From Oscillospiraceae bacterium (lineage in GTDB: Bacteria; Bacillota; Clostridia; Oscillospirales; Oscillospiraceae), in assembly GCA_017522015.1 (NCBI GenBank), contig JAFXAW010000025.1, positions 1 to 40,413 on the forward strand: DNA of 40,413 bases, given 5' to 3'. Made by a program: the position numbers and the translations under genes. Every line of letters begins with the position of its first letter. Within the stretch, counting starts at the first letter, position 1. Shown here in pieces: positions 4,091 to 40,413 of the stretch. A model generated the notes under the pieces. It had not been told where the DNA came from and ran no database searches. It saw only the letters and a program-made list of their open reading frames with translations.

Positions 4091-4119
4091 TTGCATAACG
4101 AAAAAATATACTGTATAGT
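4091..4119 (+). promoter_or_regulatory. Sigma-A promoter of the MoaF-like gene
   Basis: A -35 hexamer TTGCAT (4091-4096) and a -10 hexamer TATAGT (4114-4119) are separated by exactly 17 bases. Transcription would start near 4126, giving a leader of about 45 bases to the ATG at 4171. The -10 box lies inside the palindrome cluster 4107-4137. Confidence 0.75.
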
Positions 4120-4137
4120 AAACTATAGTGAGTATAC
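4107..4137. promoter_or_regulatory. Palindromic operator candidate overlapping the -10 box
   Basis: Overlapping AT-rich palindromes: TATAC-T-GTATA (4107-4117), TATAGT-AA-ACTATA (4114-4127) and GTATAC (4132-4137). The outer arms CTGTATA (4111-4117) and TATACAG (4133-4139) also pair. Because these cover the -10 box and the predicted start of transcription, a dimeric repressor bound here would block the promoter. No repressor gene is adjacent; PucR- and LysR-type regulators lie at 37.5-40.0 kb. Confidence 0.55.
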
Positions 4138-4170
4138 AGCCGAGACGAATCGGCGGAAAGGATGATTTTA

Positions 4171-5067
4171 ATGGATCTGCGTGAATACAGCAAGTTCGCA
4201 AACAGCACATTCCGCTTCGTTCCTCCCAGATGCTTTGAACTCTCCGGAAAGAGCTTTGAGCTGCAAATGGACGACGGATACGACATGGTCATCAGCTTTG
4301 CTGACACAACGCTGGAATGGAACTATCTGGCCAAGGAGCCGACCGTTCCGCAGCAGGAGACCTATGAGTGCAGAAAGATTGACGACACCACCTATTTTGT
4401 GTCGTACAACCTCCATGACGTAACGCCGAAGCAGAACAACGTCCTCGTGGTCGATCTGGAGCAGATGCTCGTGACCATTATGATCGCGAAAATCGGCACG
4501 AATCCCCGCTGGCCCTATCTGATCACGACCGAGTTCGTGTTCGGCGCGATCAAGCAGGATGACGTTCCCTATCAGCACTATCCCCGCCATTGCTTCACGG
4601 ATGAGGTCGTCGGCAATCTCGTAAAGTGGCAGTATTCCCCGTCCATGGCCACCGTCCACTGCTACCACAACCCCAAGTGGTATCGCATCACCTATCCGCG
4701 CGACGCCCGCGAGCAGCAGAGCTCCGGCACAAACGTCGTGCGCGAGGCGATGAAAAAGCTGCCGAGCTCCGACGAGCCGGCCGATTACATCAAGATCAAG
4801 GACGGCATCTATCTCGTGAGCATCACCGAGCAGAACATGGAAAAGCTCCTCGGCGCCGAAGTCGGCTTCCGCAGCGACAACATGTGCTTCCTTGACAACT
4901 TCAAAACCTGCATGAACGTAGGCCGCGGCTTCGGCACCATCACGAACGCCGACGGTGAGGATCGGGACGTTTTCGTGATGATCGGCGCCTACGGCCGCAT
5001 TGTCGGTGAGGACGAAAACGAGGCCTACAAGCAGATGATGCACGATCCCATCCCTTTCACGGTGTAA
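4171..5067 (+). CDS. MoaF-like protein (single N+C lipocalin-like pair)
   Basis: A soluble 298-aa protein with no signal peptide or membrane segment. It resembles the MoaF family, whose prototype sits in the Klebsiella monoamine (tyramine) regulon and has no established biochemical role. The N-terminal half carries the GKSFELQMDDGYDMVISFAD strand pair; the C-terminal half carries PRHCFTDEVVGNLVKWQYS then VHCYHNPKWYRITYP. This is the same R-H-x2-T-x-(D/E)-x-VG-x4-W-x-Y pattern as the protein at 22738-24501. Lipocalin-type beta-barrels are expected and may bind or act on a small aromatic ligand. The ATG at 4171 is chosen over 4162 because GGAAAGG (4154-4161) then has a 9-base spacing. It has its own promoter and operator and is convergent with GRE1. 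Family assignment is fairly sure; function unknown. Confidence 0.8.
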   Translation: MDLREYSKFANSTFRFVPPRCFELSGKSFELQMDDGYDMVISFADTTLEWNYLAKEPTVPQQETYECRKIDDTTYFVSYNLHDVTPKQNNVLVVDLEQMLVTIMIAKIGTNPRWPYLITTEFVFGAIKQDDVPYQHYPRHCFTDEVVGNLVKWQYSPSMATVHCYHNPKWYRITYPRDAREQQSSGTNVVREAMKKLPSSDEPADYIKIKDGIYLVSITEQNMEKLLGAEVGFRSDNMCFLDNFKTCMNVGRGFGTITNADGEDRDVFVMIGAYGRIVGEDENEAYKQMMHDPIPFTV

Positions 5068-5110
5068 CTCCGGAATCGGAGTAAGGGCATTTGCCTGATA
5101 TTCCGGAGTT
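5066..5110 (+). repeat. 11-bp inverted repeat starting in the stop codon of the MoaF-like gene
   Basis: AACTCCGGAAT (5066-5076) and ATTCCGGAGTT (5100-5110) are perfect inverted arms 23 bases apart, the first overlapping the TAA stop. There is no T run. It precedes the real terminator at 5126 and may protect the mRNA 3' end. Confidence 0.6.
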
Positions 5111-5125
5111 GGATAAAGAAAAGAA

Positions 5126-5166
5126 CCGGGCGGAACGCAATGCGTTCCGCCCGGCTTGTTTTTTTG
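5126..5166 (+). terminator. Terminator between convergent MoaF-like and GRE1 genes
   Basis: A 14-bp inverted repeat CCGGGCGGAACGCA (5126-5139) / TGCGTTCCGCCCGG (5141-5154) is followed by CTTG and a run of nine T. It serves the plus-strand MoaF-like gene. It may also help stop GRE1 transcripts from the other side, although the A run there is short. Confidence 0.9.
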
Positions 5167-5183
5167 TCTGTGATTCTGCGATT

Positions 5184-7634
5184 TTAGAATGCGTGCTCCG
5201 CGCGGGATATGACATCCTCCTGCATGGCGGGCGTCATATCCACAAAGTATGCGCTGAAACCGGCGATGCGCACAACAAGGTTGTGGTAAGCCTCGGGATC
5301 CGCCTGCGCCTTTCGAAGCGTTGCGGAGTCCACGATGTTATACTGCACTTCCATGCCGCCCATGTCGAAATAGGTCTTCGTCATGTCCTCCAGCTTCGTC
5401 ACGCCTTCGTTGGAGTTGAGGGAGGTCGGATGGATCTTGATGTTCAGCGCCATGCCGTCGAGGAAGTGCGAATGGTCATAGCTCGCAGCCGAGGTGAAGA
5501 CGCTCGTGGTGCCGTTTACGTCTCTGCCCTGGCCGGGGCTTGCCGCATCGGCGATGGGCGTGCCCGTCTTGCGGCCGTCCGGCGTCGCCCAGGTGATCTC
5601 GCCCTGCGCGATATGGTCGGAGGCGCCGAAGGTGCCGCATTTGTAGACCTTGCAGCGGGGATTGTGGAAGGCTCTGGAGGTGTTGTAATACAGATCCATC
5701 ATGTACTTCATCTCGACATCCGCATAGGGATCGCCGTTGCCGAAATGCGGCACCTCGTTGAGAATCCGCTGGCGCAGCGGCTCATAGCCCTCCCAGTTGG
5801 CGAGGATGGCCTTGAGGTATTCCTCCGCCGAGATGAGCTTCTTGTCGAAGATCATGTACTTGAGTGCGGTGAGGCTGTCCGCCGTGGTGGCAAGGCCCGT
5901 CGCGGTGCCGCCGAAGGAGTTATACTTCGCGCCGCCCTCGGAAACGTCCTTTCCGCTCTCCATGCAGCCGGTCGTGGAGATCGACAGGTTCGGGAACGGG
6001 AACAGACGCGGATACTCATGCTCCGTGTAGTTGTTGAGCGTCGCGCTCCAGGTGAGCATCCAGGTCGTGATCTTCTCAAACGCCGCGCGCACCTCGTCCA
6101 TGGACTTCATGTCGTACAGATAGCCGGAGCGCAGCTTCTCAGGCACCTGCTCGCCGTTGATGGGGTTGATGCCGTTGTTGATCGCCATCACCAGCGCGAT
6201 CGCCCAGTAGATGCCGCTGTGCGACATGGCAGAGCCGTTCGGCGCGGGATAGTCGTTACCCGAGCCCGTGATCTCCTGGCAGCCGATGAAGGCAAAGTTT
6301 CTGGCATCCTCCAGCTCAAAGCCCAGCTCATTGATCAGCGCGGGGATGATCACCTCGTCGTTTTGCAGCAGCGGCAGACCGCCCACGCGCATGGAGGTGG
6401 CCATCGCGCAGTCCCAGATCTCCTTGGGGGAGTTCCGGCTCAGACGCAGGGAGATGGTCGGCTCATGCAGCTCAAGGCGGGCAATTGCCTCCAGCACCAT
6501 ATAGGTGACCGGGTTGGTTGCGTCCTCACCCGTCTCGGGAATCACGCCGCCGATGGTGGTGTGCTGGCCGAGGTGGCCGACGCCGGCGGTCTGCGCCGTC
6601 TTTCCGAAGCCGCCATAATAGAAGGTGTTGATCTTCAGGAAGAAGGCGTCCACCAGTTCCTGCGCCTCATCCATCGTGATTCTGCCCTCTTCCAGATCTT
6701 TCTTGAGGTAGGGCCAGGTATACTGGTCGAATCTGCCGAGGCTCGTAACGCCGGGGTCGTTGTCCACCTTGAGGAAGACGTTATAGAGCATGACCTGCTG
6801 GCAAGCCTCGCGGAAGGTGCGGGCCGTGTTCTCCACGAGCCAGTCGAGGCTCTCCGCCATCTGCTCCAGCTCCTGCCGGCGCTCGTCCGTCTTGGCCTCC
6901 TTGGCCTTTTCCCGCGCCAGATCGGCGTAACGGCGGGTAAGCGTCATGGCGCCGTCACAGGCGACGGTCGCCGCCTTGTAGAACATATATTTGCCCATGT
7001 TGTCGCCCTGTACGTTGCCCTCATGCGCATCCAGCCACTCCTGCGCCTGCCGGCGGATGTCGCCGTAGCCGCGCTTGAGGATGTTCTGGAAGCCGGGGGT
7101 CAGGTGTCCCGGAGGCAGCATGGTGGGGAACCCGCCGATTTTGCCGTAATCGGAGGCCTGAAGCTTATAGAAATCCCGTGCGCCGTCCGGCAGCCACTCT
7201 TCAGGTGTGATGTTGCCATAGACTGCGCGCTTCTGCGCTGCGATCTCGCGCAGCTTGCGGATCTCCTCCGGCGCGATCGCGAGCTTCTGATGCGAATAAA
7301 ACGGATCGTCGTCCGGGGCATGATGCAGCCCGTCCGCCTCAATGGGCCAGGTGTTCTCAAGGTCCACGGAAAGCCAGTGCGCGCCGCCCGCAGCGCCCCA
7401 GCCGCGGTTGCCCATATCGCCGACAAAGTATTCGTCCTCCACAATGTCAATGTGCATTCTGGAGATCACTTCCAGCGAGATGTGCGGCTTTTGCAGCATC
7501 GGCGGGAAATTATAGTATCTCTGCAGTGCTTCCAGCTTGATCTGTTCCTTCGAGGAATCCGCCACGATCAGTCTGTCGCGCACCTTTGCGCGCATTCTTT
7601 CAATGCGATCGCAAACCGGTCTGAATGTATACAT
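5184..7634 (-). CDS. Glycyl radical enzyme GRE1 (PFL/glycerol-dehydratase-like, substrate unknown)
   Basis: An 816-aa glycyl radical enzyme: a PFL-type barrel followed by a C-terminal glycyl-radical domain. The thiyl cysteine is Cys452 in FAFIGCQEITGSGNDY; the Cys-x-Glu arrangement (Glu454) is that of dehydratases, C-N lyases and aryl-acetate decarboxylases, not of pyruvate formate-lyase (Cys-Cys). The radical site is Gly792 in RIAGFSAYF. The start MYTFRPV at 7634 has AAGGAAGG upstream and aligns with GRE2 (31732-34176), placing the cysteine at residue 452 in both; a longer reading to 7751 adds 39 unrelated residues. No activase is adjacent; the nearest in the window is 34260-35216. A promoter with an extended -10 lies at 7693-7721, divergent from a flavin reductase. 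The substrate cannot be named from sequence; choline, glycerol and hydroxyproline enzymes usually have GCVE here, not GCQE. Confidence 0.93.
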   Translation of the reverse strand: MYTFRPVCDRIERMRAKVRDRLIVADSSKEQIKLEALQRYYNFPPMLQKPHISLEVISRMHIDIVEDEYFVGDMGNRGWGAAGGAHWLSVDLENTWPIEADGLHHAPDDDPFYSHQKLAIAPEEIRKLREIAAQKRAVYGNITPEEWLPDGARDFYKLQASDYGKIGGFPTMLPPGHLTPGFQNILKRGYGDIRRQAQEWLDAHEGNVQGDNMGKYMFYKAATVACDGAMTLTRRYADLAREKAKEAKTDERRQELEQMAESLDWLVENTARTFREACQQVMLYNVFLKVDNDPGVTSLGRFDQYTWPYLKKDLEEGRITMDEAQELVDAFFLKINTFYYGGFGKTAQTAGVGHLGQHTTIGGVIPETGEDATNPVTYMVLEAIARLELHEPTISLRLSRNSPKEIWDCAMATSMRVGGLPLLQNDEVIIPALINELGFELEDARNFAFIGCQEITGSGNDYPAPNGSAMSHSGIYWAIALVMAINNGINPINGEQVPEKLRSGYLYDMKSMDEVRAAFEKITTWMLTWSATLNNYTEHEYPRLFPFPNLSISTTGCMESGKDVSEGGAKYNSFGGTATGLATTADSLTALKYMIFDKKLISAEEYLKAILANWEGYEPLRQRILNEVPHFGNGDPYADVEMKYMMDLYYNTSRAFHNPRCKVYKCGTFGASDHIAQGEITWATPDGRKTGTPIADAASPGQGRDVNGTTSVFTSAASYDHSHFLDGMALNIKIHPTSLNSNEGVTKLEDMTKTYFDMGGMEVQYNIVDSATLRKAQADPEAYHNLVVRIAGFSAYFVDMTPAMQEDVISRAEHAF

Positions 7635-9826: not shown

Positions 9827-9852
9827 GTTCCGCCGAAGCGCAAGGTTTCATC

Positions 9853-9885
9853 AGCGCGGCAGGCCGTCAAAAGCCTTTCGCAAGA
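9853..9885 (+). repeat. Copy 1 of a 34-bp direct repeat flanking the MBOAT-DHHW pair
   Basis: 33 bases beginning AGCGCGGCAGGCCG and ending TCGCAAGA. It matches copy 2 at 13027-13060 at about 30 of 34 aligned positions (three substitutions and one gap). Flanking sequence does not match. It lies in the space between the reductase stop (9826) and the MBOAT gene. Confidence 0.75.
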
Positions 9886-9930
9886 GCGCGCCGCCAAACT
9901 GTATGTATGGCAAGCGACGATTACGCGCGC

Positions 9931-9959
9931 TTGCGCCAAGCGTCCGAACGGACTATATC
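9931..9959 (+). promoter_or_regulatory. Possible promoter of the MBOAT-DHHW operon
   Basis: TTGCGC (9931-9936), 17-base spacer, TATATC (9954-9959). The hexamers are only moderate matches. The -35 overlaps the right arm of a GCAAGCG/CGCTTGC hairpin (9910-9934). Confidence 0.4.
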
Positions 9960-9999
9960 GTTTTATTGGGTGCATCATAGCAGAACTATAAAGAAAGGA

Positions 10000-10018
10000 C
10001 GGCCCGGTCTTTGGGCCG
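10000..10018 (+). promoter_or_regulatory. Hairpin between ribosome binding site and MBOAT start
   Basis: AAGAAAGGA (9991-9999) is followed at once by a stem CGGCCC (10000-10005) / GGGCCG (10013-10018) with a seven-base loop. The family-type GTG start is at 10032, about 13 bases after the stem. A TTG at 10011 would have normal spacing but falls in the loop and adds seven residues not expected in the family. Confidence 0.45.
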
Positions 10019-10031
10019 CACGGACTGTACT

Positions 10032-11417
10032 GTGGTTTTTTCTTCCCTCACCTTTGCGGCATGTTTTCTGCCGTCGGTGTTTTGCCTCTATTTTCTAAGC
10101 AAAAATCCCCGCTGGCGCAACGGCGTGCTGCTGGTGTTCTCCATTCTGTTTTATTCCTGGGGAGAGCCGCGCTTTCTGCTGCTGATGCTCCTGAGCATCG
10201 GGATCAACTATCTCTCCGCGCTGGGAATCGCAGGCAGCGCACGCCCCGCCGTGCGAAAGCTGTGTATGCTCCTCGGCGTCATGACAAGTCTTGGGCTGCT
10301 GATCTGGTTCAAATACAGCGCCTTTGCGGTCAACTCGCTGTCCGGCCTGCTTGGCCTGGGCGACGTGATGCAGCCGAAGACACTGCCCATCGGCATCTCT
10401 TTTTACACATTTCAGGTTCTGACCTATACCATTGACGTCTACCGCGGCAAATGTCCCGTGCAGAAAAATCTGTTCCGGCTCGCGCTCTACATCAGCTTTT
10501 TCCCGCAGCTCATCGCCGGACCCATCGTCAATTACAGCTATATTCAGCCGCAGCTTGAAAAACGCGACATTTCGCACGAAGATGTGTACCTCGGCCTGCG
10601 GCGTTTCATCATCGGACTCTCCAAAAAACTTCTGCTGGCGAATCTCTGCGGCGAGATCACGGATCTGCTCGGAGGTGGAAGCAGCATGCTCGGCGCATGG
10701 CTGAGCGCCATCGCCTTCACATTGCAGATTTATTTTGACTTCTCCGGCTATTCCGATATGGCGATCGGCATGGGCCGCTGCTTTGGCTTCCGCTTTTTGG
10801 AGAACTTTGACCACCCCTATGTCTCGCTGTCCGTTTCGGAATTCTGGCGGCGCTGGCACATCTCGCTGGGCGCGTTCTTCCGCGAATATGTCTACATCCC
10901 GCTCGGCGGAAGCCGCGTAAACAAAGCGCGGCTGGCGCTGAATCTGCTGGTTGTCTGGGCGCTCACGGGTCTTTGGCACGGCGCGTCCTGGAATTTCCTC
11001 GTCTGGGGGCTGTATTACTGCATCCTCCTGATTATCGAGAAGCTCACGGGCGTTTCGGAAAAGCTCCCGCGCGCAATCCGCTTTGCGGGAACGCTTCTGC
11101 TTGTCATCTTCGGCTGGGTAATCTTCTACAACGAGAGCCTTACGCAGGGTCTTGGGCAGATCTCGCGGATGCTCTGCTTCGGCGCAGAACATCTCAGCGA
11201 CGGCGTTGCCGTCTACTGCCTCAAGCGCTATCTCGGCGTGCTGCTGATCTCCGTGGCCGCCTGCCTGCCGTGGACGCGGCTGCGCAAATGCTTCGCTTGC
11301 CGAAACAAAAAGCTGTTCGCCGCAGCGGAGGGCATCGTGCTCACAGCGCTTCTCGTGCTCTGCTATCTTTCCCTGGCCGGTTCCAGCTATAACCCGTTTC
11401 TGTATTTCCGCTTCTGA
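10032..11417 (+). CDS. MBOAT family membrane O-acyltransferase (AlgI-like)
   Basis: Polytopic membrane protein of 461 aa that moves acyl (usually acetyl) groups across the membrane for O-acetylation of cell-surface or exported polysaccharide. The N-terminus MVFSSLTFAACFLPSV is the usual AlgI/PatA/DltB-like start, so GTG 10032 is chosen over TTG 10011. Family hallmarks are LPIGISFYTFQVLTYTIDVYRG, FPQLIAGPIVNY, DFSGYSDMAIGMGRCFGF, FWRRWHISLGAFFREYVYIPLGG, and the catalytic-type histidine His316 in GLWHGASWNFLVWG. Many hydrophobic segments span the protein. The stop is 17 bases before the DHHW gene at 11435, so both form one operon, as AlgI with AlgJ/AlgX. The acceptor glycan is unknown; DltB-type teichoic acid alanylation is less likely because no dltA or dltC is present. 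Confidence 0.92.
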   Translation: MVFSSLTFAACFLPSVFCLYFLSKNPRWRNGVLLVFSILFYSWGEPRFLLLMLLSIGINYLSALGIAGSARPAVRKLCMLLGVMTSLGLLIWFKYSAFAVNSLSGLLGLGDVMQPKTLPIGISFYTFQVLTYTIDVYRGKCPVQKNLFRLALYISFFPQLIAGPIVNYSYIQPQLEKRDISHEDVYLGLRRFIIGLSKKLLLANLCGEITDLLGGGSSMLGAWLSAIAFTLQIYFDFSGYSDMAIGMGRCFGFRFLENFDHPYVSLSVSEFWRRWHISLGAFFREYVYIPLGGSRVNKARLALNLLVVWALTGLWHGASWNFLVWGLYYCILLIIEKLTGVSEKLPRAIRFAGTLLLVIFGWVIFYNESLTQGLGQISRMLCFGAEHLSDGVAVYCLKRYLGVLLISVAACLPWTRLRKCFACRNKKLFAAAEGIVLTALLVLCYLSLAGSSYNPFLYFRF

Positions 11418-11434
11418 GGAGGTTTAATGCGATT

Positions 11435-12982
11435 ATGAGTCTTTTCTCCTCGAAAAATGGGCGCCATGAAGCGCCCGCATCCGGCAGACGGATGCGCAAA
11501 TCCGCATCGGCACGCGAGCCCGGCAGGGCAGCCCCCAAGCGGACAAACGGCCTGCGCGTTTTCTTTTCGGCCCTTTGGGTTGTGCTGCTGGTCGTGCTCG
11601 GCGTATATTTCTGCGCCTTTGCCCCGCGCGAGGGTGTGTACAACGAGCGGGAAAACCGGCTGCTCGCCAACGCGCCGGATTTCTCCGCGAAGTCCATTTT
11701 CGGCGGCGCGCTCGACACGGAAACCGAGGCTTATCTCAGTGACCATATCCCCGCCCGCGAGGGTGCAATCCGCCTGAGCAACGCGCTGCGCGACATGCTG
11801 AGTATTGCCAGTTATGAAGACGGTCTTGCCATCGCCGGAAAGCAGGAGGATGCACTGACCTCCGCTGCGCCGGATGCGGACATTCTCGACGACATGATCT
11901 CCGTCTTTGACCAGCCGGCCGTCACGCCAACCCCCTCCGGGTCGGAAACGGACACGCCAACGCCGGACGGCACCGTACCTCCGGATCCGACAGAGACGCC
12001 GGACGATGAGCCCGTGGTGGAAACGCCGTCCGTGCCCCGCCGCGAAAAGCCGGCGGTATCGCCGGATGACTACCCGGAAATTCTCAGCGTATATACGGAA
12101 ACGAATTCCGGGCGCGCAACCTATTACAGCTACGGCCGCTCCAACGTGCTGGCCGTCACGAGCGTGCTCAACCGCGTTGCGGCGCTGCTTCCCGAGGACG
12201 GCAGCCTTGTCTATACGATGGTTCCGCAGGCGAGCATCGGAAACCTCTATGTCGCGGCGGCGGAGAAAAAAGCTTTCGTCTCGGAGACCGAGGCCGTGGT
12301 GGACGCCTTTGGCAGCGAAAAAGTCACGGCGATCAGCTCGGCGGCGATTCTGGGCGAGGCCATCAAGAATGACGAATATGTCTATTTCCGCACGGATATG
12401 CACTGGACGCCCTACGGCACCTATCTGGTATATTGCAAAATGCTTGAGGCGATCGGCATGACACCCGCCGCGCGCGAGGATTTTTCCATTGAGATTGAGG
12501 AGCCCTTCCGCGGCACCTATTACCGCGACAATCCCACGAACTATATGTACAACAACCCCGACCGGCTGGAGCTGCTGCAGCCACGCTTCCCGCTGGAGTG
12601 GCGGCGCATTACGGGGCCGGACGGCCAGTACAAGCTGATTGACTTTCTCAACTGGAACGCCGCTGCCAATGACCGCTACACGATCTATCTCGGCGGCCCG
12701 GCAGGTCCCTGGACCTATGCACAGTGTGACAACGGGCAGACGAAAAACTGCCTCGTCATCACCGACTCTTTCGGTCTGGCTTTCGTGCCGCTGATGACGC
12801 AGAACTACGCGCAGGTGCATTATTACGACCCGCGTTACTTCAATGGCGGCATCGTCGGCGCTTCGGCGAAAGAGATGATCGAGGCCTATGACATCACGGA
12901 CGTCTTCGTGGTGGTCGGCGATCTGCACAGCTACAACAGCGATTTTATCCTCGGCCAGCTCAACACCCAGCTCGGGGATTAA
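11435..12982 (+). CDS. DHHW/AlgJ-like SGNH-fold acetyltransferase partner of MBOAT
   Basis: A 515-aa membrane-anchored extracytoplasmic protein, probable final O-acetyltransferase acting with the upstream MBOAT. A cytoplasmic tail of about 40 residues precedes one membrane segment (FFSALWVVLLVVLGVYFCAF). A low-complexity Pro/Thr/Asp/Glu linker follows (VTPTPSGSETDTPTPDG onward). The catalytic domain has Asp321-Met-His323-Trp324 in YFRTDMHWTPYG and a candidate nucleophile Ser445 in CLVITDSFGLAF, matching the Asp-x-His plus Ser triad of AlgJ/AlgX proteins. GAGGAGG (11416-11422) serves the start; a three-codon reading frame ATG-CGA-TTA-TGA (11427-11438) ends on the true ATG and may couple initiation. 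It is followed by repeat copy 2 and a terminator, closing the two-gene unit. Confidence 0.88.
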   Translation: MSLFSSKNGRHEAPASGRRMRKSASAREPGRAAPKRTNGLRVFFSALWVVLLVVLGVYFCAFAPREGVYNERENRLLANAPDFSAKSIFGGALDTETEAYLSDHIPAREGAIRLSNALRDMLSIASYEDGLAIAGKQEDALTSAAPDADILDDMISVFDQPAVTPTPSGSETDTPTPDGTVPPDPTETPDDEPVVETPSVPRREKPAVSPDDYPEILSVYTETNSGRATYYSYGRSNVLAVTSVLNRVAALLPEDGSLVYTMVPQASIGNLYVAAAEKKAFVSETEAVVDAFGSEKVTAISSAAILGEAIKNDEYVYFRTDMHWTPYGTYLVYCKMLEAIGMTPAAREDFSIEIEEPFRGTYYRDNPTNYMYNNPDRLELLQPRFPLEWRRITGPDGQYKLIDFLNWNAAANDRYTIYLGGPAGPWTYAQCDNGQTKNCLVITDSFGLAFVPLMTQNYAQVHYYDPRYFNGGIVGASAKEMIEAYDITDVFVVVGDLHSYNSDFILGQLNTQLGD

Positions 12983-13026
12983 CCGTCAGCACCGGACACC
13001 CGGAAAAAGAAGCCGTCCGCCGCGAT

Positions 13027-13060
13027 AGCGCGGCAGGACGCCAAAAGGCTTGTCGCAAGA
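13027..13060 (+). repeat. Copy 2 of the 34-bp direct repeat
   Basis: 34 bases starting AGCGCGGCAGGACG and ending TCGCAAGA, the same orientation as copy 1 (9853-9885). Its left part also pairs with upstream sequence: GTCC-GCCGCG (about 13013-13022) with CGCGGC-A-GGAC. It lies 45 bases after the DHHW stop codon. Confidence 0.75.
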
Positions 13061-13068
13061 AAGTGCTG

Positions 13069-13110
13069 CAGGCCCGGCGGATCAATCCGATCCGCCGGGC
13101 CTGTTGTTGT
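13069..13110 (+). terminator. Terminator of the MBOAT-DHHW operon
   Basis: A perfect 15-bp inverted repeat CAGGCCCGGCGGATC (13069-13083) / GATCCGCCGGGCCTG (13089-13103) with a five-base loop, followed by TTGTTGTATTT. The T run is interrupted by G, so efficiency may be moderate. Confidence 0.85.
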
Positions 13111-13171
13111 ATTTGCGGGCAGGCTGTGGTATGGTTGATACATCCCCGTTTTCCCTTCCCTTTTCACTTCG

Positions 13172-31731: not shown

Positions 31732-34176
31732 TTAGAGCGAGTGGTCGTGACGGCGGATCAGGTCGTTCTGGCAGTCGGTGCTCAGCTCGACGAAGTAGGC
31801 GGAATAGCCCGCGATACGCACGATCAGATCCTTATACTCCTCCGGCTCCTTCTGCGCCGCGCGCAGCACATCCGCGGAGACGACGTTATACTGGCACTCC
31901 ATGCCGCCTTCCTCGAAATAGGTCATCGTCATGTCGCGCAGCTTTTCAATGCCCTCCGCGCCGGCGATGGCGTTGGGATGGATCTTCAGGTTGACGGCAA
32001 GACCGTCAATAAAGCGCTTGTGATCCCAGGAAACGCTGGAGGTGAACACGCCGGTGGGGCCATTGAGGTCACGGCCCTGCGCCGGGGAGCTGGCATCCGC
32101 GATGGGATCGCCCGTGAAACGGCCGTCCGGCGTTGCCCAGGTCGTGTAGCCCTGCGTGACATGGTCGGAAGCGCCGTACAGACCGCACTTGTAAACCTTG
32201 GAACGCATGGAATAGCACTCCTGGCAGGCGTTGTAATACACATCCAGAATCCACTGCATCTCCATATCGGCATAGGGGTTGCCGTTGCCGTAGTGCGGAA
32301 CCTCGGCGAGGATGCGCTGGCGCAGGGGCTCGTAGCCCTGCCAGTTCGCCATAACGGCGTCATACAGCTCGCGCGTCGTGCAGAGCTTCTTGTCAAAGCA
32401 CATGTACTTGATGGTCGTCATGCAGTCCGCAATCGTGGCAAGACCCGTGGCCGTGCCGCCGTAGGAGTTGTAGCGGCAGCCGCCCCAGGTGGCGTCCATG
32501 CCCTGCTCCATGCAGCCCGCCATGCTCAGGGACAGGATGTTCTCCGTGCCGTGATACATGTGGAGATACTCGGTGTAGTTATCCACGCTGACCTGCAGCT
32601 TGATGAAGTAATACACCATCTTCCGCATCGCCTCGCGGACTTCCTCGATGCTCTGCATATCGTACAGGAAGCCGGTGTGCAGCGAGCACTGTTCGTTGTT
32701 AAAGGGGTTCTTGCCGTCGTTGATGGCCATCATGAACACGGAGCCGTAGTTCAGGCTGGAATACGGCGGCGTGCAGCCGTTTGCAGCGGAATAGTCCGTG
32801 CCCGGTCCGACAATTTCCTGACAGCCCATGATCGCATAGTCACGCGCGTCCTCCAGAGAGAAGCCGACCTCCTGCATCAGCGCAGGCACGATCACCTCGT
32901 CGTTCTGGAACAGCGGCAGACCGCCGACGATCTTGGTGGTCTCGATGGCGAGCTCCCAGATCTCTTTGGGCGTGTTCTTGTTGATGCGCAGGGAGATGGT
33001 GGGGTCATGCAGCTTCAGCCGCGCGATGGATTCCAGCACCATGAAGCTCAGCTCATTGGTCGAGTCGTTGCCCTGCTTGTCAACGCCGCCGATGGTGGTG
33101 TGCTCATAGGTGTTCGCGCCGATCATGTGCACCATGTACTGCGAAGCGCCAGCCCAGGTGTTATTGAGCTTGAGGAAGAACGCGTCCACGATCTCCTGCG
33201 CCTCGTCCATCGTGAGCGCGCCGCTCTCGATGTCCTGCTTGAAATATTTATAAGTATACTGGTCAAAGCGTCCCATGGAGATGGCGCCGCCGCCATCGAT
33301 CAGGATGCAGAACTGGTAAAGCAGCGCGGCCTCGACCGCCTCAAAGAAGTTGCGCGCGGGATTTTCGGAAATCCAGTGCAGGCTCTCGCCCATCTTTTCC
33401 AGCTCGGCCTTGCGCTTGGGATCCTTCTCCGTCTTGGCCTTGTCAAAGCAGGCGTCGCCCGTGCGGCGGACATAGGTGCTGCACGCATCGCAGGCGATGA
33501 CCGCGGAGGAATAGAACAGGTACTTCTTGACGTCGTCACCCATGATGTTGCCGCGGTGCTCGTCAAGCCAATCCTGCGCCTGCTTGCGGATGGCACCGTA
33601 GCCGACGTTGATGATCTTCTCGTGGCCGGGGATCAGGTGTCCCGGACGGCAGCCGACAAGATGCTTGAGGAAGACGTTGTGCTTGGTTGCGCCCATGCGG
33701 CACAGCTCATCCAAACCCTCGGGAGCCCAACCGTCACCGCAGGTGTTGAAGCTCTTATCCTTCCAGAACTCGGCAATGCTCTGCATATACTCCACGTCCT
33801 CGGGCGCTGCCATAATCCGGTAGTCATCCGTGTCGGGGTTGTGCCACAGGCCGTCCTCGCCCATGTACCACTCGCCCTTTTCGATCGCCTGGATGATCCA
33901 CAGGTTGTCGCCGCGCATCGCGGGGTTGGGGCAGGAGCTGGAGAAGAAGCGGCCCAGATTGCCGGCCAGAACGTCAAAATCCTCCACGCGCATGGTCATC
34001 TGCTCGGCAACCGCCTTGGTGATCGTGGGCCGGCGGATGGTGGGCACGAGCGTGACATGCTTCTTAAATTCTTCCGTGATGATTCTGGCGCGCTCCGAGT
34101 CAAGCTGGACACGGCGGTTGCGGATGCGGCTGCGCATCTCCTGAATTCGCGGAGAAATCGGTCTGAACTGATACAT
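31732..34176 (-). CDS. Glycyl radical enzyme GRE2 (PFL/glycerol-dehydratase-like, substrate unknown)
   Basis: An 814-aa glycyl radical enzyme, a paralogue of GRE1 along its whole length. Thiyl cysteine Cys452 and acid-base Glu454 sit in YAIMGCQEIVGPGTDYS; the radical glycine is Gly790 in LIVRIAGYSAYFVELS. The C-terminal half is most alike to GRE1 (for example GYEPLRQRIL, VPHYGNGNPYAD). The N-terminal part is more different and has its own start MYQFRPISPRIQEM. The ribosome site AAAGGG is moderate. The activase gene lies directly upstream (83-base gap), so this operon makes enzyme and activator together. GCQE followed by G-x-G-x-D-Y is not a motif I recall from choline, glycerol, hydroxyproline, isethionate or arylacetate enzymes, which often have GCVE. 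The substrate is unassigned. It depends on anaerobic conditions. Confidence 0.93.
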   Translation of the reverse strand: MYQFRPISPRIQEMRSRIRNRRVQLDSERARIITEEFKKHVTLVPTIRRPTITKAVAEQMTMRVEDFDVLAGNLGRFFSSSCPNPAMRGDNLWIIQAIEKGEWYMGEDGLWHNPDTDDYRIMAAPEDVEYMQSIAEFWKDKSFNTCGDGWAPEGLDELCRMGATKHNVFLKHLVGCRPGHLIPGHEKIINVGYGAIRKQAQDWLDEHRGNIMGDDVKKYLFYSSAVIACDACSTYVRRTGDACFDKAKTEKDPKRKAELEKMGESLHWISENPARNFFEAVEAALLYQFCILIDGGGAISMGRFDQYTYKYFKQDIESGALTMDEAQEIVDAFFLKLNNTWAGASQYMVHMIGANTYEHTTIGGVDKQGNDSTNELSFMVLESIARLKLHDPTISLRINKNTPKEIWELAIETTKIVGGLPLFQNDEVIVPALMQEVGFSLEDARDYAIMGCQEIVGPGTDYSAANGCTPPYSSLNYGSVFMMAINDGKNPFNNEQCSLHTGFLYDMQSIEEVREAMRKMVYYFIKLQVSVDNYTEYLHMYHGTENILSLSMAGCMEQGMDATWGGCRYNSYGGTATGLATIADCMTTIKYMCFDKKLCTTRELYDAVMANWQGYEPLRQRILAEVPHYGNGNPYADMEMQWILDVYYNACQECYSMRSKVYKCGLYGASDHVTQGYTTWATPDGRFTGDPIADASSPAQGRDLNGPTGVFTSSVSWDHKRFIDGLAVNLKIHPNAIAGAEGIEKLRDMTMTYFEEGGMECQYNVVSADVLRAAQKEPEEYKDLIVRIAGYSAYFVELSTDCQNDLIRRHDHSL

Positions 34177-35489: not shown

Positions 35490-36320
35490 TCAGTCGAGAT
35501 CGACGGTGAAGTTGTCCTTATACTCGGCATAGAGGCTCGGGAGGATCTTCGCCAGGTGACGGTACTCCTTGATGTTGTGCAGGAGCATCATTCTGCTTCC
35601 CATATCGCCGCCCATGGACGGACGGTTCGGATCTTCGGGCAGACGCTCCACAACGCCGTTAGCCGCACGGTAGCCGGAATAGAATCTCGTTCTGAGCTCA
35701 CCGCCCTCGGGCGTGCCGCGGAAGAAGTGAATCATCAGAGAAGGTGGTCCCGGTGTGCAGATGATGGTGCCGTTGTAATCCTTGAGCTTCTCGCCGTCAA
35801 AGCCGAGCTCGGTGGGATTGACAAAGTGCAGTCTCACGGGGATGGCCGGGCCGCCGGGCACGATGGATTCCTTGATCTCGTGCTGGGTGTCCCAGAAACG
35901 CTCACGCAGGCTCAGAGAAGTGTCCAGCGCCTGCTCGACGTTCTGCGTCTGGCAATAGTAATGCTCGTCCTTGTTCCAGATCGTGTAACGAAGGGAGTCC
36001 AGACCATGCCAGGCAAACCACCAGTCGAACATCTCGGGCGTGACGCCGGGGAAGGGCGTGAGGTTGGCGAACATGGTGCCGCCGTCCGGCAGAGTGTAGA
36101 AGCCGAACTCGCTGTCGGTGTAACCCTCGTCGAACATCTTGTTGAGTTCCTCAACGGGCGTGCCGGGCAGATTGTCGCTGTAGGTCATCTTCATAACCTG
36201 CTCGACCAGATCGGCCGGGACGGGCTCAATGTCCATGTTGTAATACTTCATCAGCGGGCTCTGCTTCTGCTTTTCCGTCAGCTCGGGGGGCGGAGTAGGC
36301 TTAAAATTCATCTGATCCAC
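35490..36320 (-). CDS. DAPG/phloretin hydrolase (PhlG)-like protein
   Basis: A 276-aa soluble protein of the 2,4-diacetylphloroglucinol hydrolase family. Characterised members cut a C-C bond next to a phloroglucinol ring (PhlG of Pseudomonas; phloretin hydrolase of Eubacterium ramulus) with a zinc site. Visible family parts are PEMFDWWFAWHGLDSLRYTI (His about 105), then IWNKDEHYY, MIHFFRGTPEGGELRTRFYSG and LLHNIKEYRHLAKILPSLY, whose His-x3-Glu (about 248 and 252) matches the His-Glu zinc pair of PhlG. GTG 36320 has GGAGGG six bases upstream. It follows the FabK-like gene by 43 bases in one operon. Family assignment is good from motifs, but whether it cleaves a flavonoid-derived dihydrochalcone or another diketone or ketone cannot be read. 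Confidence 0.82.
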   Translation of the reverse strand: MDQMNFKPTPPPELTEKQKQSPLMKYYNMDIEPVPADLVEQVMKMTYSDNLPGTPVEELNKMFDEGYTDSEFGFYTLPDGGTMFANLTPFPGVTPEMFDWWFAWHGLDSLRYTIWNKDEHYYCQTQNVEQALDTSLSLRERFWDTQHEIKESIVPGGPAIPVRLHFVNPTELGFDGEKLKDYNGTIICTPGPPSLMIHFFRGTPEGGELRTRFYSGYRAANGVVERLPEDPNRPSMGGDMGSRMMLLHNIKEYRHLAKILPSLYAEYKDNFTVDLD

Positions 36321-36363: not shown

Positions 36364-37338
36364 TTACAGGCCCAGGGTGTAGCTCTTGCGCAGGAGCTCC
36401 TCGGTCTCGTGGCAGAGATCCACGACCAGGTTGCGGACCGTCTTGATCTCGGTGATCAGGCCGCAGACCTGACCGGTCATGACAGCGCCGACATCCAGAT
36501 CGCCGTCGCGGGAAGCGGCGGCCAGGGAGCCACGGGAGGCTTCCATCAGCAGCTTGGCAGCGACATCGCGCGGATTCTCGGCCTCGATCTTGAGCAGCTC
36601 ATCGGCCAGCTTGTTGCGGATCTGCCAGCTGGGCTCGCCGGTGCACTCGCCGCAGGAGACGATGTCGATATCCTGCGCCTTGAGGACGGCCTGCTTGGCG
36701 TTCTCGTGCATGGGGGCCTCAACAGCAGTCAGGAAGGCAGAGCCCATCTCGATGCCCTCGGCGCCGCCGACGACGCAGCTTGCAAACTGGCGGGCAGTGT
36801 AGATACCGCCGGAAGCAACGATCGGCACATCCTTGATGTTCTCAACCAGCTCGGCCAGCAGAACACGGCCGCTGATTCTGGCCTTGTGGCCGCCGCCCTC
36901 AACGCCCTTGGCGATGATGACGTCCGCACCGGCCTTGGCCGCAACCAGACCGTCCTGCAGGCAGTTGACCTTGGCAACGACCTTCGCGCCGGTCTTCTTC
37001 ATGCGCTCATAGTAACGGGCTGCGAAGTCGTACTCCAGCAGTCTCAGGGTGTCCAGGTACACGACCGGAACCGGAACCTTCTCCAGGGTGGAGCAGTTGA
37101 TCTCAATCTGCTCACCGGGATCCAGGAAGATGTTCGCGCCGAAGGGCTTGTCGGTCATCTTGCGGATCTCAGCGATCTGCGCCTCGATGATGAAGCCGGG
37201 CATAAAGCCGCAGCCCAGAACGCCAAGGCCGCCGGCCTCGGAGACGGCACCGACCAGGGGGGCCATTGCGGTCCAGGCCATGGCGCCCTGAATTACGGGA
37301 TACTCGATACCAAGCGCTTCGCATACACGGTTTTTCAT
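36364..37338 (-). CDS. FabK / nitronate monooxygenase family FMN flavoprotein
   Basis: A 324-aa TIM-barrel flavoprotein of the 2-nitropropane dioxygenase/FabK family. Sequence marks are YPVIQGAMAWTAMAPLVGAV, GGLGVLGCGF, KPFGANIFLD, ADVIIAKGVEGGGHKA with the active-site type His151, VPIVASGGIYTARQFASCVV and GAEGIEMGSAFLTAVEAP. FabK enzymes reduce enoyl-thioesters; nitronate enzymes need oxygen, which is unlikely in an anaerobe, so an enoyl or enoate reductase role is favoured. No fatty-acid synthesis genes adjoin it; instead it is the first gene of an operon with the PhlG-like protein, which hints at a catabolic role. ATG 37338 has GAAAGGAG 11 bases upstream and is preferred to 37359, whose codon is part of that site. 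Confidence 0.88.
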   Translation of the reverse strand: MKNRVCEALGIEYPVIQGAMAWTAMAPLVGAVSEAGGLGVLGCGFMPGFIIEAQIAEIRKMTDKPFGANIFLDPGEQIEINCSTLEKVPVPVVYLDTLRLLEYDFAARYYERMKKTGAKVVAKVNCLQDGLVAAKAGADVIIAKGVEGGGHKARISGRVLLAELVENIKDVPIVASGGIYTARQFASCVVGGAEGIEMGSAFLTAVEAPMHENAKQAVLKAQDIDIVSCGECTGEPSWQIRNKLADELLKIEAENPRDVAAKLLMEASRGSLAAASRDGDLDVGAVMTGQVCGLITEIKTVRNLVVDLCHETEELLRKSYTLGL

Positions 37339-37547
37339 GTTTTGATGTGCTCCTTTCATTCGTTGCGGGAGAGCTTTGATCGCTCCCTCCGCGCTTATAA
37401 ATTGGGCAGCAGTGACTGTCCGAAAACGCCACTATACCTCTTGCCTTACATTTTAACTGTTTCCTGCAAAAACTTCAATGAACTGGCAGCTTGAAATTAT
37501 ATACCGCTCGGCCGCACCTTTCGTACTGCCAGTACCAATCCTGATTT

Positions 37548-39137
37548 TCAATCCCTTTCAATCTCCGCAGAAACAGGCTCCGACACAGCGCGGCGCAGCC
37601 CGTCTGCCGGCGAATCATGCAGCAGGCAGGCGCGGCAGCACAGAAGATAGTGCTGCTCCCGCACCGGATCGTCCAGCTGCAGATGATAGATCTCCTTCAT
37701 TCTCCCCAGCCGATAGACGATCGTGCTTCTGTGCATATGCAGCGCCCGGCAGGCGCCGGCCAGAGACTTGCCCATCAACAGATAAAAATAGAGAATGCGG
37801 CAGTCATTGCGCCCGGACCGCTGGTCGGCGCGGTGGAGCGCGGCGATCTCGGGCGCCAGATAATAGGGCATCCGCTCGTCGCTGAAAAAGCTGTCCAGAA
37901 TATCGTCCGACGCCACGTCAATGTAAAACCACAGGCGGCGCTTGCCCGCCGCGGGCTCGTCCGACAGGGAAAGCCGGCCAAGCTCCAGCGCTCGCAGACT
38001 CTGTTTGAGTCCGAAAGCCACACCCAGAAGATCGGACATGGCATAACTCAGGCCGAAACGGCCGTTCATCGCCTCCGCGAGCGTTTCCAGACGCTGATAT
38101 TGGTACTGGGAGTACACCACGTCCGTCTCTCTTTCGCTGACGCACATCACGAAACGGAGCCGCCCGTCGTGCATGTAAACCGCCGAGTGGGGCAGCATTT
38201 CCCGCAGCTGCAGCATATAGGCGGCCGCCCGGTTATCCGGCACGGCCATCTCCAGCGTTCCCGTCACGAAAGCCCAGTCCGGCTTCGGGGAGAGCAGTGC
38301 GGTCAGCGGTTCCGGATCCCGGAACTGCAAAAGCTGATCGAAGGCGAAAGCGGCAATGCTGCCGGGCGCAAGGCGCAGCTTGGACAGGTTCAGCGAATGC
38401 CGCATAAAGCGGCACAGATCGTGCATCAGATCCAATATCCCCTGCGAGAGCGCCGTGCGGGTGACGGCGCAGGTCACATTGGCGCACAGCACACCGTCAC
38501 TGATGATGTTATAGAAAATCTGCGGCTTTCCGTCCTGCTCCGCGACAACGGCGCGCCCTTCGTCGTCATAGATATAGCGCCGCACGGGCATCAGCTCCCG
38601 GCGCGCATTGAGCAGGAATTCCGGCATCGGCCGCATGGTTCCGTCAAAGTCGAAGAAGGGATAGTCCTCCGTCGAAGCATCCCGGGAGATGGCAATCAGC
38701 GTATAGGAGGAATCCTGCACCAGCATCGGATTGAGCAGCATGTGCTCGCTGGCGTTGAGATATTCCTGCGGATTGCGCTTATCCAGCGAAAGCTCGGTCA
38801 GCGCTTCAATCCATGCGTGATAGCGCTCGATCGCATCGAGAAGAAGCTCCAAAAGCTCCTCCTGCCGCGCATCCTTACACAGCGCGATGCAATTGGGCAG
38901 GCTGCCGGTTTCCGCCTCCGCGCGCGTCACAAAGCAGGCATCCGCAGGGATCTCCATGCCCTCGCCCGGCAGCTGCTCCAGGCACAGATAGAGCGTGCGT
39001 GCGCGCAGGCGCTCCGTGCCCGGACGGAGGATCGCCGCGTGCGACACCTTGCGCGCCGGACGCTCCGTGAGGTCAAAGCGGCATTCCGGCTCAAACGCCG
39101 CCATGCAGTCGATCAGGTATGAAATCCAGACGTTCAT
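37548..39137 (-). CDS. PucR/CdaR-type transcription regulator
   Basis: A 529-aa regulator. The C-terminus carries the PucR-type helix-turn-helix, KSLAGACRALHMHRSTIVYR, then LGRMKEIYHLQLDDP, at about residues 463-500. The central part has the GGDEF-like/CdaR regulatory region (FGLSYAMSDLLGVAFGLKQS) and the N-terminal half a possible sensing domain (PMLVQDSSYTLIAISRDAS). Members control purine, amino acid, sugar acid and aromatic catabolism in answer to small molecules. The gene is 37 bases after the LysR gene, so both are likely one transcript, and 209 bases upstream of the FabK-PhlG operon in the same direction. It may activate that operon or the GRE genes; this is inferred from position only. 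Confidence 0.88.
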   Translation of the reverse strand: MNVWISYLIDCMAAFEPECRFDLTERPARKVSHAAILRPGTERLRARTLYLCLEQLPGEGMEIPADACFVTRAEAETGSLPNCIALCKDARQEELLELLLDAIERYHAWIEALTELSLDKRNPQEYLNASEHMLLNPMLVQDSSYTLIAISRDASTEDYPFFDFDGTMRPMPEFLLNARRELMPVRRYIYDDEGRAVVAEQDGKPQIFYNIISDGVLCANVTCAVTRTALSQGILDLMHDLCRFMRHSLNLSKLRLAPGSIAAFAFDQLLQFRDPEPLTALLSPKPDWAFVTGTLEMAVPDNRAAAYMLQLREMLPHSAVYMHDGRLRFVMCVSERETDVVYSQYQYQRLETLAEAMNGRFGLSYAMSDLLGVAFGLKQSLRALELGRLSLSDEPAAGKRRLWFYIDVASDDILDSFFSDERMPYYLAPEIAALHRADQRSGRNDCRILYFYLLMGKSLAGACRALHMHRSTIVYRLGRMKEIYHLQLDDPVREQHYLLCCRACLLHDSPADGLRRAVSEPVSAEIERD

Positions 39138-39173
39138 GCTTTTCGTCCCCCGAATCTTTCTGCGCGGCCGGGC

Positions 39174-40049
39174 TTATTTTTGACCATCGCAGTTAAAGAT
39201 CTCCGCGAGCTCATCGGCAAAGGCCGCCGCAGCCTGATTCTCCACGGAAAAGACGGCGTTGATATACACATTCGTGTCCAGCGGCAGATATTCAAACAGC
39301 TCCGAGTGCACAGCGCTGTCCCAGTCCGCAAAGATCATCACGCCGTTGCCGCGGGTGAGCTCGAACACCGCCGTATGGTAGTTGGCGCAGTTCTTGAACA
39401 CCGGCGTGAACTCGTCCCCGCAGATTCTGCTGGCCAGCGCCTCAAACTGATCCTTCGCGCTTGTGTCCCAGCCGAGGAACTGCGTATACCGCAGGTCGCC
39501 GATGCTCTTGACGTCCGGAAAGCACTTTTTGGAATACAGCACGCCGCAGCCCGTCGTGGCAACATGCTTCGTGCACATTCCCATCAGGAAGGTCTCCCGC
39601 AGATCAAGCGAGAGGATCATGTCCAGCTCCCGGTTTTTGAGCATATTGAGCATCTCCGGCAGGGGGAAGCACTCGATTCCGATGGTCAGATCCGGCTGCG
39701 TGGCGTGGAAGTGATCCATGATGGTCGGGCAGAAAGCCTCCGGATTCCAGGTGGAGGGGCAGCCGATGCGGATGTGCCGCGCCGTGCGGTCCCTGTACTG
39801 GTCGATCTCCTTGAGCAGATGGCGATACTCATCCTTCGAGCGGGAGAAAAATTCGTACAGCAGCTTGCCCGCGTAGGTCAGCGTGATGCTCTTCTCCCAT
39901 CTGGAAAACAGCGCAAATCCAAGCTCTTTTTCCATTGCAGAGATGCTCTTGCTGATCGCCGGCTGCGAGACAAACAGGCGGCTTGCAGCGCGGGTGATGC
40001 TTCCGTCTCCGGCCACGGCCAGGAAATAGTTGATCTGGGACTGTGTCAT
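39174..40049 (-). CDS. LysR-type transcription regulator
   Basis: A 291-aa LTTR. Residues 1-60 are the winged helix-turn-helix (INYFLAVAGDGSITRAASRL, FVSQPAISKSISAMEKELGF). Residues about 90-285 are the two-lobed ligand-binding domain (RHIRIGCPSTWNPEAFCP, TIGIECFPLPEMLNMLKNRE, LDMILSLDLRE). GTAGGA lies upstream of the ATG. It is divergently transcribed from the ferredoxin-like gene at 40246, with two 27-bp direct repeats in the gap, the common arrangement in which an LTTR activates the divergent gene and represses itself. The PucR regulator follows 36 bases downstream. The ligand is unknown; a short aromatic or carboxylic acid is usual for LTTRs near catabolic genes. Confidence 0.92.
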   Translation of the reverse strand: MTQSQINYFLAVAGDGSITRAASRLFVSQPAISKSISAMEKELGFALFSRWEKSITLTYAGKLLYEFFSRSKDEYRHLLKEIDQYRDRTARHIRIGCPSTWNPEAFCPTIMDHFHATQPDLTIGIECFPLPEMLNMLKNRELDMILSLDLRETFLMGMCTKHVATTGCGVLYSKKCFPDVKSIGDLRYTQFLGWDTSAKDQFEALASRICGDEFTPVFKNCANYHTAVFELTRGNGVMIFADWDSAVHSELFEYLPLDTNVYINAVFSVENQAAAAFADELAEIFNCDGQK

Positions 40050-40099
40050 GCGTCATTCCTACTTTCTCAGAAATATATCAAAACTTTTATAATGCTTTT

Positions 40100-40160
40100 G
40101 CCATGCATGTGCTGGAATGGTTATAATCCCTGCGCCATATGTGCGCTGAAATGGTTATAA
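40100..40160. promoter_or_regulatory. Two 27-bp direct repeats, probable LysR binding sites
   Basis: Unit 1 (40100-40126) and unit 2 (40134-40160) match at 22 of 27 positions, start with GCCAT and end with AATGGTTATAA. Their starts are 34 bases apart, about three helical turns. They fall between LysR and the ferredoxin gene, upstream of a weak -10-like TAAAAT at 40204-40209. Confidence 0.75.
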
Positions 40161-40245
40161 CAAATTTACCATAAGTGAATTAGATATTTCAAGTCCTATA
40201 TGTTAAAATGTAAATATATTTTAAGATGGAGGTATTGGGCTTTAT

Positions 40246-40413
40246 ATGATTTTCACGAATCACAGAATCGAATTCGATCCCGAGAAGTGCGTCGGTTGCC
40301 AGCTGTGCTACAAGGCTTGCTTCGTAGACGTCATCCGCTGGGATGCCGAGGCGAAGAAGCCGGTCTTCAAGTATGTTGAGGACTGCGAGCACTGCTTCTA
40401 CTGCCAGAGCGTC
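40246..40413 (+). CDS. 4Fe-4S ferredoxin-like protein, N-terminal 56 residues (3' truncated by window edge)
   Basis: The frame starts at ATG 40246 with GGAGG at 40228-40232 and is still open at the window end. It holds a full 4Fe-4S motif, Cys15-x2-Cys18-x2-Cys21-x3-Cys25 (EKCVGCQLCYKAC), and the start of a second, Cys47-x2-Cys50-x2-Cys53 (DCEHCFYC). Such two-cluster proteins are electron partners of FAD-dependent reductases, aldehyde oxidoreductases or adenylylsulfate reductase-type enzymes. What follows is outside the window. It is divergent from LysR and likely the first gene of a LysR-controlled operon. Electron transfer is sure at the level of family; the partner is not known. Confidence 0.88.
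   Translation, partial: MIFTNHRIEFDPEKCVGCQLCYKACFVDVIRWDAEAKKPVFKYVEDCEHCFYCQSV

Follow-up and report, generated by a model that had tools for sequence, protein, structure and literature searches.

A candidate PhlG-centred module for plant-phenolic catabolism on an Oscillospiraceae contig, and its flavoprotein-ferredoxin partners in related genomes

According to Zhou et al. (PMC10470551), phloroglucinol is broken down by PGR, a cyclohydrolase of the cyclase family, a dehydrogenase of the 3HCDH type and a lyase of the BKACE family. The same account describes the gene cluster PGR, DPGC, TfD and TAL in Clostridium scatologenes, F. plautii, Eubacterium ramulus and others, and notes that, in mycobacteria, a phloretin hydrolase gene joins it (PMC10470551). 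A relative of phloretin hydrolase and PhlG is encoded in the DNA analysed here, a window of 40,413 bases that makes up the entire contig C25 (JAFXAW010000025.1) of an Oscillospiraceae metagenome-assembled genome (MAG; 1.87 Mb, 49 contigs, about 91% complete). We consider it slightly better than an even bet (roughly 0.55) that the block at 31.7-40.4 kb around this PhlG-like gene, together with a flavoprotein gene presumed to lie past the contig end, represents an upper-pathway module of anaerobic acylphloroglucinol or flavonoid degradation. A broader role of the block and of the organism in plant-phenolic catabolism, as originally predicted from this DNA, is well supported, judging by the PhlG zinc-site residues, the likeness to phloretin hydrolase, the stretches shared with phloroglucinol genes, and the pathway and transhydroxylase-like pair encoded in the same genome.

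The block runs on the minus strand from 40049 down to 31732 and comprises, in this order, genes for LysR-type and PucR-type regulators, a FabK-like flavoenzyme, the PhlG-like hydrolase, an activase of glycyl radical enzymes (GREs) and a GRE, GRE2 (Table 1). The PhlG-like protein belongs to the same sequence family (PF18089) as phloretin hydrolase and PhlG and keeps the four residues that map to their zinc site; these two enzymes are its closest entries in the PDB (5xe5, 118 bits, and 3hwp, 88 bits). The zinc ligands, which we take to be H129, E160, H270 and E274 in PhlG numbering and mapped onto the alignment, correspond to residues kept in all 28 aligned PhlG domains, that of the window included. 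The protein differs from both characterized enzymes in that the similarity is modest and far below the level of the equivalog for 2,4-diacetylphloroglucinol (DAPG) hydrolase, and in that its relatives are fused to a flavoprotein.

This flavoprotein and its ferredoxin are best seen outside the window. The close sister genome of the same genus (G001, Oscillospiraceae MAG SIG483, record SVLI01000006.1) encodes a ferredoxin and then a flavoprotein of 559-561 residues that resembles AprA and fumarate reductase, and the pair is present twice. The two flavoprotein-ferredoxin pairs lie in tandem (locus L044, 561-4656), with flavoproteins that are 84% identical and ferredoxins that are nearly identical by eye. 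In common with the flavoproteins of AprA/PAPS reductase and fumarate reductase, these proteins contain the Pfam domains FAD_binding_2 and Succ_DH_flav_C, and their gene is paired with one for a small 2x[4Fe-4S] protein. They differ from those enzymes in the weakness of the similarity (the best solved relatives being PAPS/APS reductases, 97 bits to 8a8o and 70 bits to 1jnr, and fumarate-reductase-type subunits), in the fusion to PhlG and in the phloroglucinol gene context.

In relatives, the PhlG domain is found at the C-terminus of this same flavoprotein. Such fusions account for 12 of 28 PhlG genes (20 from loci fetched for PhlG alone and 8 from outside them, with overlapping and orthologous loci kept in); the ferredoxin gene is adjacent in 11, and the twelfth ends the fetched stretch. 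Half of the unfused PhlG genes (8/16) have both a flavoprotein and a ferredoxin gene within 5 kb. The flavoprotein-ferredoxin-PhlG module thus conceived is present at 14 of the 20 loci fetched for PhlG alone, which were drawn, mostly as the better matches, from 71 places. Genes in relatives were called with a caller trained on homologues; Pfam confirmed both domains in the two fusions scanned and, without recourse to gene calls, open frames of 816-928 residues, the length expected of a fusion, surround 20 of the 71 PhlG places. The fused forms are not confined to one branch of the flavoprotein tree, in which the support of some branches is weak, so that repeated fusion or fission is probable; such repetition argues for consecutive or cooperating steps.

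Candidate genes for the subsequent breakdown of phloroglucinol are present in the same lineage. On contig C29 of the window genome, genes for a CoA-transferase, BKACE, 3HCDH, cyclase, SDR and thiolase lie together, and the end of contig C37 carries a second BKACE and cyclase, the copy of which in the sister also has SDR and 3HCDH. Cyclase and BKACE genes lie within about 1.5 kb of each other in all 10 genomes tested. In five genomes (G008, G188, G097, G064 and G171), PhlG, flavoprotein and ferredoxin genes share a stretch with phloroglucinol genes. The clearest order is that of G008, where PhlG, ferredoxin, flavoprotein, SDR, 3HCDH, cyclase and BKACE genes follow one another on one strand; in G188, the PhlG module and the phloroglucinol genes are divergent and accompanied by CoA-transferase genes, and, in the remaining three, the PhlG, flavoprotein and ferredoxin genes occur with three or four of the four phloroglucinol genes. 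Among the 20 loci retrieved with PhlG only, 3 carry three or more lower-pathway genes. Against the NCBIfam model of 3,5-dioxohexanoate cleavage (cut-off 430 bits), the BKACE proteins of C29 and G008 remain under the cut-off, with 141 and 246 bits, respectively.

These arrangements match the published cluster (PMC10470551) in that the four enzyme families are clustered, with a CoA-transferase and a thiolase, on C29. They differ from the cluster as described there in that it is joined to flavoprotein, ferredoxin and PhlG genes in the five genomes, and in that the PhlG block of the window is on a separate contig, with a GRE and its activase. Given this pathway, the statement of the original prediction that no described pathway has this combination is too strong for the lower part. 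Phloroglucinol released by the PhlG-like enzyme could, judging by gene content, be consumed in the same cell. Beside the phloroglucinol cluster, C29 (loci L275 and L281) also carries a pair of adjacent genes resembling pyrogallol hydroxytransferase (large subunit 828 bits and small subunit 107 bits to 4v4c), and use of gallate or tannins by the organism is likely.

Under the upper-pathway reading, the ferredoxin-linked flavoprotein would reduce a substrate of the chalcone or flavanone type, giving a dihydrochalcone-like aryl ketone. The PhlG-like zinc hydrolase, to judge by its family and conserved metal site, would then cut the C-C bond beside the trihydroxy ring. The phloroglucinol would be passed to the reductase, cyclohydrolase, dehydrogenase and triacetate-acetoacetate lyase, families represented elsewhere in the window genome, and would end up as acetoacetyl-CoA and butyrate. 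The LysR and PucR proteins would control the block. GRE2 and its activase would probably catalyse a side step on the same class of substrates, tentatively the removal of a carboxyl or oxygen substituent, as suggested by retention of the Cys-x-Glu pair and of the dehydratase histidine. The other catabolic genes of the window, namely GRE1, the two-domain Old Yellow Enzyme (OYE) and MoaF1 on the one hand, and MoaF2 and LUD on the other hand, would form separate modules of the same polyphenol-degrading lifestyle; PhlG has no established tie to GRE1, OYE, MoaF or LUD. The dismantling of polyphenols by anaerobes in the rumen and in other herbivore guts is only partly known, and the flavoprotein-PhlG module, which sits at phloroglucinol clusters and is a fusion in more than one branch, offers a candidate for the reduction and cleavage step that can be tested directly. 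What looks new here is this module, with the abundant GCQE-type GREs as background, rather than a proven pathway. Searches of the literature, with most subscription journals outside their range, found nothing that joins phloretin hydrolase with fumarate reductase, or MoaF with either glycyl radical enzymes or lipocalins.

Several observations weigh against assigning the block to this route. The PhlG-like protein reaches 93 bits on the DAPG-hydrolase equivalog NF047887 (cut-off 600) and is therefore not filed as a DAPG hydrolase. Neither a flavoprotein nor a ferredoxin was called within 5 kb of 8 of the 28 PhlG genes, namely, that of the window itself, where the contig end cuts the ferredoxin, that of L148, on a 5-kb contig, and six others. 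The flavoproteins of the sister are unfused and 57-64% identical to those of the relatives, and the FabK, PucR and activase genes are not constant partners of PhlG among the relatives. GRE2 adjoins PhlG only in the genus of the window and in G188, so that only a tentative role in the PhlG route can be assigned to it, and the phloroglucinol genes of the window genome are on other contigs, away from the PhlG block. All functions are deduced from sequence.

The flavoprotein and ferredoxin might act not ahead of PhlG but on another ring substituent, for example, in a reductive dehydroxylation, with the fusion only keeping the two enzymes in one complex. We consider this rather unlikely: the closest solved relatives of the flavoprotein are indeed the PAPS/APS reductases and not OYE-type ene-reductases, as such a role would suggest, but both the location of the flavoprotein gene in G008, close to PhlG and the SDR gene for a putative phloroglucinol reductase and placed between them, and the fusion in more than one branch are best explained by consecutive steps. 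For the window as a whole, it is reasonably probable that a polyphenol-degrading lineage has several catabolic modules, independent of one another, side by side because its genomes are rich in such genes, with no common pathway beyond the PhlG block; this is compatible with the upper-pathway reading, which concerns that block. The densities of the families are high (114 GRE, 138 OYE and 38 MoaF places in ten whole genomes), about 7.7 kb between the OYE gene and a GT2 gene are absent from the sister, and the surroundings of GRE1 orthologues change: no constant neighbour was found at 26 loci (cluster labels compared by eye), and a dedicated GRE1 neighbourhood was rejected. Proximity within 5 kb in the ten genomes is not clearly above expectation for PhlG-GRE (2/10 against 0.5 expected, P 0.09, with the sister as one of the two), PhlG-OYE (0/10), PhlG-MoaF (0/10) or MoaF-OYE (4/38 against 2.4, P 0.22), and a general MoaF-OYE or PhlG-GRE linkage was rejected. 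MoaF-GRE proximity is 5/38 against 2.1 expected (P 0.056). Speaking for more than juxtaposition are the local clustering of GRE with OYE (20/114 against 7.5 expected, P about 1e-4, in 8 genomes), the order of the other genes, which is kept in the sister, albeit within one genus, and a very strong co-occurrence at the genome level. The local proximities look no different at 10 kb. The ten genomes were selected for carrying MoaF2 and for a low number of contigs, with each genus represented once; the sister, whose locus had given rise to the test, is among them. Expected numbers were computed as if genes were placed uniformly, without regard to contig breaks; for MoaF, double hits in one open reading frame were merged (2 of 39 rows dropped) and one MoaF2 place missed by Pfam was added. 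Among loci fetched for one family, OYE occurs at 5 and GRE at 2 of 20 MoaF2-orthologue loci, and GRE occurs at 1 of 20 PhlG loci.

The original prediction had joined all modules in one plant-phenolic pathway in which GRE chemistry supplied the key C-C or C-O step, and had proposed co-occurrence statistics as its test. In a sample of 200 genomes of the family, the families do co-occur at the genome level: MoaF relatives and GCQE-type GREs in 28 genomes against 5.4 expected (18 genera against 4.3), MoaF and PhlG relatives in 22 against 7.4, and PhlG and GCQE-type GREs in 21 against 7.4, with genus-level p <=8e-7 for the MoaF-GRE and MoaF-PhlG pairs in statistics that ignore phylogeny. A MoaF match was counted at E <=1e-8, which includes genomes with only single-MoaF relatives, and a GRE match at E <=1e-240 to GRE1; G000 was excluded at the genome level with n kept at 200, and the searches for relatives of MoaF2, PhlG and GRE scored only some candidates per genome (five for GRE), so that they give lower bounds. 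Several pathways running in parallel in one lineage would also account for such co-occurrence. Individual loci do bring the families together: on one strand of L253 (G136), OYE, ferredoxin, flavoprotein/PhlG, MFS, GRE and activase genes, MFS and GRE being separated by two further called genes; at L164 (G188), PhlG, a PucR-type regulator, URO-D and a GRE2 orthologue (76%); at L048 (G012), a GRE2 orthologue (68%), BKACE and MoaF; at L256 (G188), a GRE, butyrate genes and MoaF; and at L278 (G084), phloroglucinol genes beside two GREs. However, each arrangement is rare and different from the others, all of them were picked out by eye from about 160 loci, and the proximity of PhlG pairs is not significant in the ten genomes. 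With GRE-OYE as the only pair that clusters significantly and GRE1 lacking a constant neighbour, a single pathway across the window is highly doubtful. A bolder combination, which we also regard as decidedly unlikely, if less so, is that the flavoprotein-ferredoxin-PhlG module is an undescribed bifunctional enzyme that couples reductive opening of flavonoids to the release of phloroglucinol in one complex, and that, jointly, the GCQE-type GREs, mostly without an activase of their own, are a new class that cleaves C-O or C-C bonds of aryl side chains of plant phenolics, with MoaF barrels and OYEs as helpers.

Both GREs of the window keep the glycine loop RxAG[FY], the catalytic Cys and the Cys-x-Glu pair within the motif GCQE, and represent a type that fits no assigned family. 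They share with the glycyl radical dehydratases and lyases (1r8w, CutC, HYPD, HpsG/HpfG) the glycyl radical motif, Cys-x-Glu and the dehydratase histidine, with 402 bits of GRE2 to 1r8w, and differ from them by GCQE in place of GCVEP and by scores below all equivalogs; among the NCBIfam models for HYPD, CutC, HpsG, HpfG, IAD, HPAD and PFL, none of the cut-offs was reached, the best scores of GRE1 and GRE2 being 401 against 1100 and 459 against 1000 bits. The histidine, at what we assume to be its position in glycerol dehydratase, is kept in the GRE2 alignment and in at least 75 of 90 unique GREs (95 before the removal of identical proteins), 62 of these of the GCQE type. The serine and aspartate of glycerol dehydratase, presumably substrate contacts, are not conserved in GRE2. 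GRE1 and GRE2 probably catalyse a radical reaction of the dehydratase or lyase kind, with a substrate other than glycerol. The activase adjoins GRE2, and none is adjacent to GRE1; an activase is the immediate neighbour of 5 of 67 GCQE genes versus 11 of 28 GCVE/GCVD genes (duplicate places kept).

PF01228 matches number 11 in the window genome (one weak) and 4-22 in each of ten relatives (E <=1e-10; part of them in frames that a contig end truncates), for example, 22 in the 2.4 Mb of G084 (three or four in shortened frames), 16 in the 1.8 Mb of G109 and 13 in the 2.2 Mb of G116. Up to 22 GRE matches in a 2.4-Mb genome, many of a type without an assigned function, point to a large unexplored radical chemistry, perhaps acting on plant compounds. 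At L213, L234, L265, L259 and L278, GREs occur in tandem (28-71 bp apart on one strand) or as divergent pairs, several with a GCQE-type beside a GCVE-type enzyme, and these are possibly paired or heteromeric enzymes. Genes of the URO-D family near GREs (L164, L250, L262, L263 and L278; 6 of 60 GRE-anchored loci as a raw count) are possible O-demethylase methyltransferases. The loci L253-L265 and L274-L282 were chosen for matches already known, and the labels MATE and ABC and some cluster names were assigned by eye.

The OYE gene is divergent from GRE1; its product scores 385 against 825 bits for BaiCD, 405 against 793 for mycofactocin OYE and 340 against 750 for bilirubin reductase, below all three cut-offs. 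Of the three MoaF units originally proposed, two pass the Pfam cut-off in the window, and the third, the N-terminal unit of the double protein MoaF2 (aligned in 24 sequences), is detectable only in the sister, at 20 bits and under the cut-off. At L256 (6488-18073), a GRE, 3HCDH, acyl-CoA dehydrogenase, crotonase, EtfB, EtfA, PTA_PTB, an acetate/butyrate-kinase family protein and a double MoaF are encoded on one strand, and the GRE product may feed butyrate formation. At L257 and L258 (G084 and G221), MoaF is directly upstream of a GCQE-type GRE, near FAD_binding_4, CCG and an importer with a Peripla_BP_4 binding protein.

Pfam scans recovered all genes named in the original prediction, the ferredoxin as a fragment at the contig end; the span of that prediction, starting at 4091, misses the 3HCDH-ACAD-EtfB-EtfA genes at 1-3947, which are on the same strand as MoaF1, have the same order in the sister, belong to families that recur at L256 of G188 and are likely the butyrate arm. 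The window and the sister are 91-97% identical in DNA over the main blocks. The segment 9829-17489, absent at the same place in the sister, is a recent insertion or loss, and 20830-22641 (PIG-L-like) is almost wholly absent there. The catabolic genes are on both strands and interrupted by MBOAT, DHHW, HTH, LGT, NAGPA, GT2/GtrA, GH120 and ROK genes, and are not a single operon; gain or loss of unrelated genes partly explains their dispersed appearance.

Table 1. Predicted features of the window, with the supporting matches
Feature	Positions	Strand	Basis and remarks
3-hydroxyacyl-CoA dehydrogenase (3HCDH)	58-732	+	Pfam; frame open at contig start
Acyl-CoA dehydrogenase (ACAD)	838-1998	+	Pfam
EtfB	2013-2816	+	Pfam
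EtfA	2832-3947	+	Pfam
MoaF1, single MoaF	4162/4171-5067	+	PF10703 44 bits (cut-off 23.3), PF17409 26 bits
GRE1, GCQE-type	5184-7634	-	PF02901 433 bits, PF01228 97 bits; motifs GCQEIT, RIAGF
Two-domain OYE/2,4-dienoyl-CoA-reductase-type flavoenzyme	7829/7880-9826	+	OYE and Pyr_redox (Pfam)
MBOAT, DHHW, HTH, LGT, NAGPA1	9829-17489		Pfam; taken as outside the system
MoaF2, double MoaF	22738-24501	-	C-terminal half PF10703 56 bits (cut-off 23.3), PF17409 45 bits
LUD-domain protein	24544-25134	-	PF02589 109 bits; open frame to 25308, domain from residue 61
GRE2, GCQE-type	31732-34176	-	PF02901 462 bits, PF01228 95 bits; motifs GCQEIV, RIAGY
GRE activase (radical SAM and 4Fe-4S)	34260-35216/35234	-	TIGR02494 335 bits (cut-off 174)
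PhlG/phloretin-hydrolase-like zinc C-C hydrolase	35490-36320	-	PF18089 196 bits (cut-off 22.7)
FabK/nitronate-monooxygenase-like flavoenzyme	36364-37359	-	PF03060 174 bits; FabK model 239 bits (cut-off 453)
PucR-type regulator	37548-39137	-	PF13556
LysR-type regulator	39174-40049	-	PF00126; divergent from ferredoxin
2x[4Fe-4S] ferredoxin, 81-residue type	40246-40413	+	56 of 81 codons; contig end cuts the gene

A minus-strand reading of the ferredoxin (40189-40413) was rejected as the antisense of the plus-strand gene, and so were long antisense open reading frames over GRE1, GH120, GRE2 and OYE, which have no Pfam match. The region 26790-31518, with a GH120-like beta-helix glycosidase, a ROK kinase and a putative lipoprotein (30037-31518, no Pfam match at E 0.001), is a separate sugar module. 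The source records of the 37 loci with MoaF2 relatives include sheep, yak and buffalo rumen, sheep duodenum and horse faeces, and some of the isolate names look like termite-gut and digester samples.

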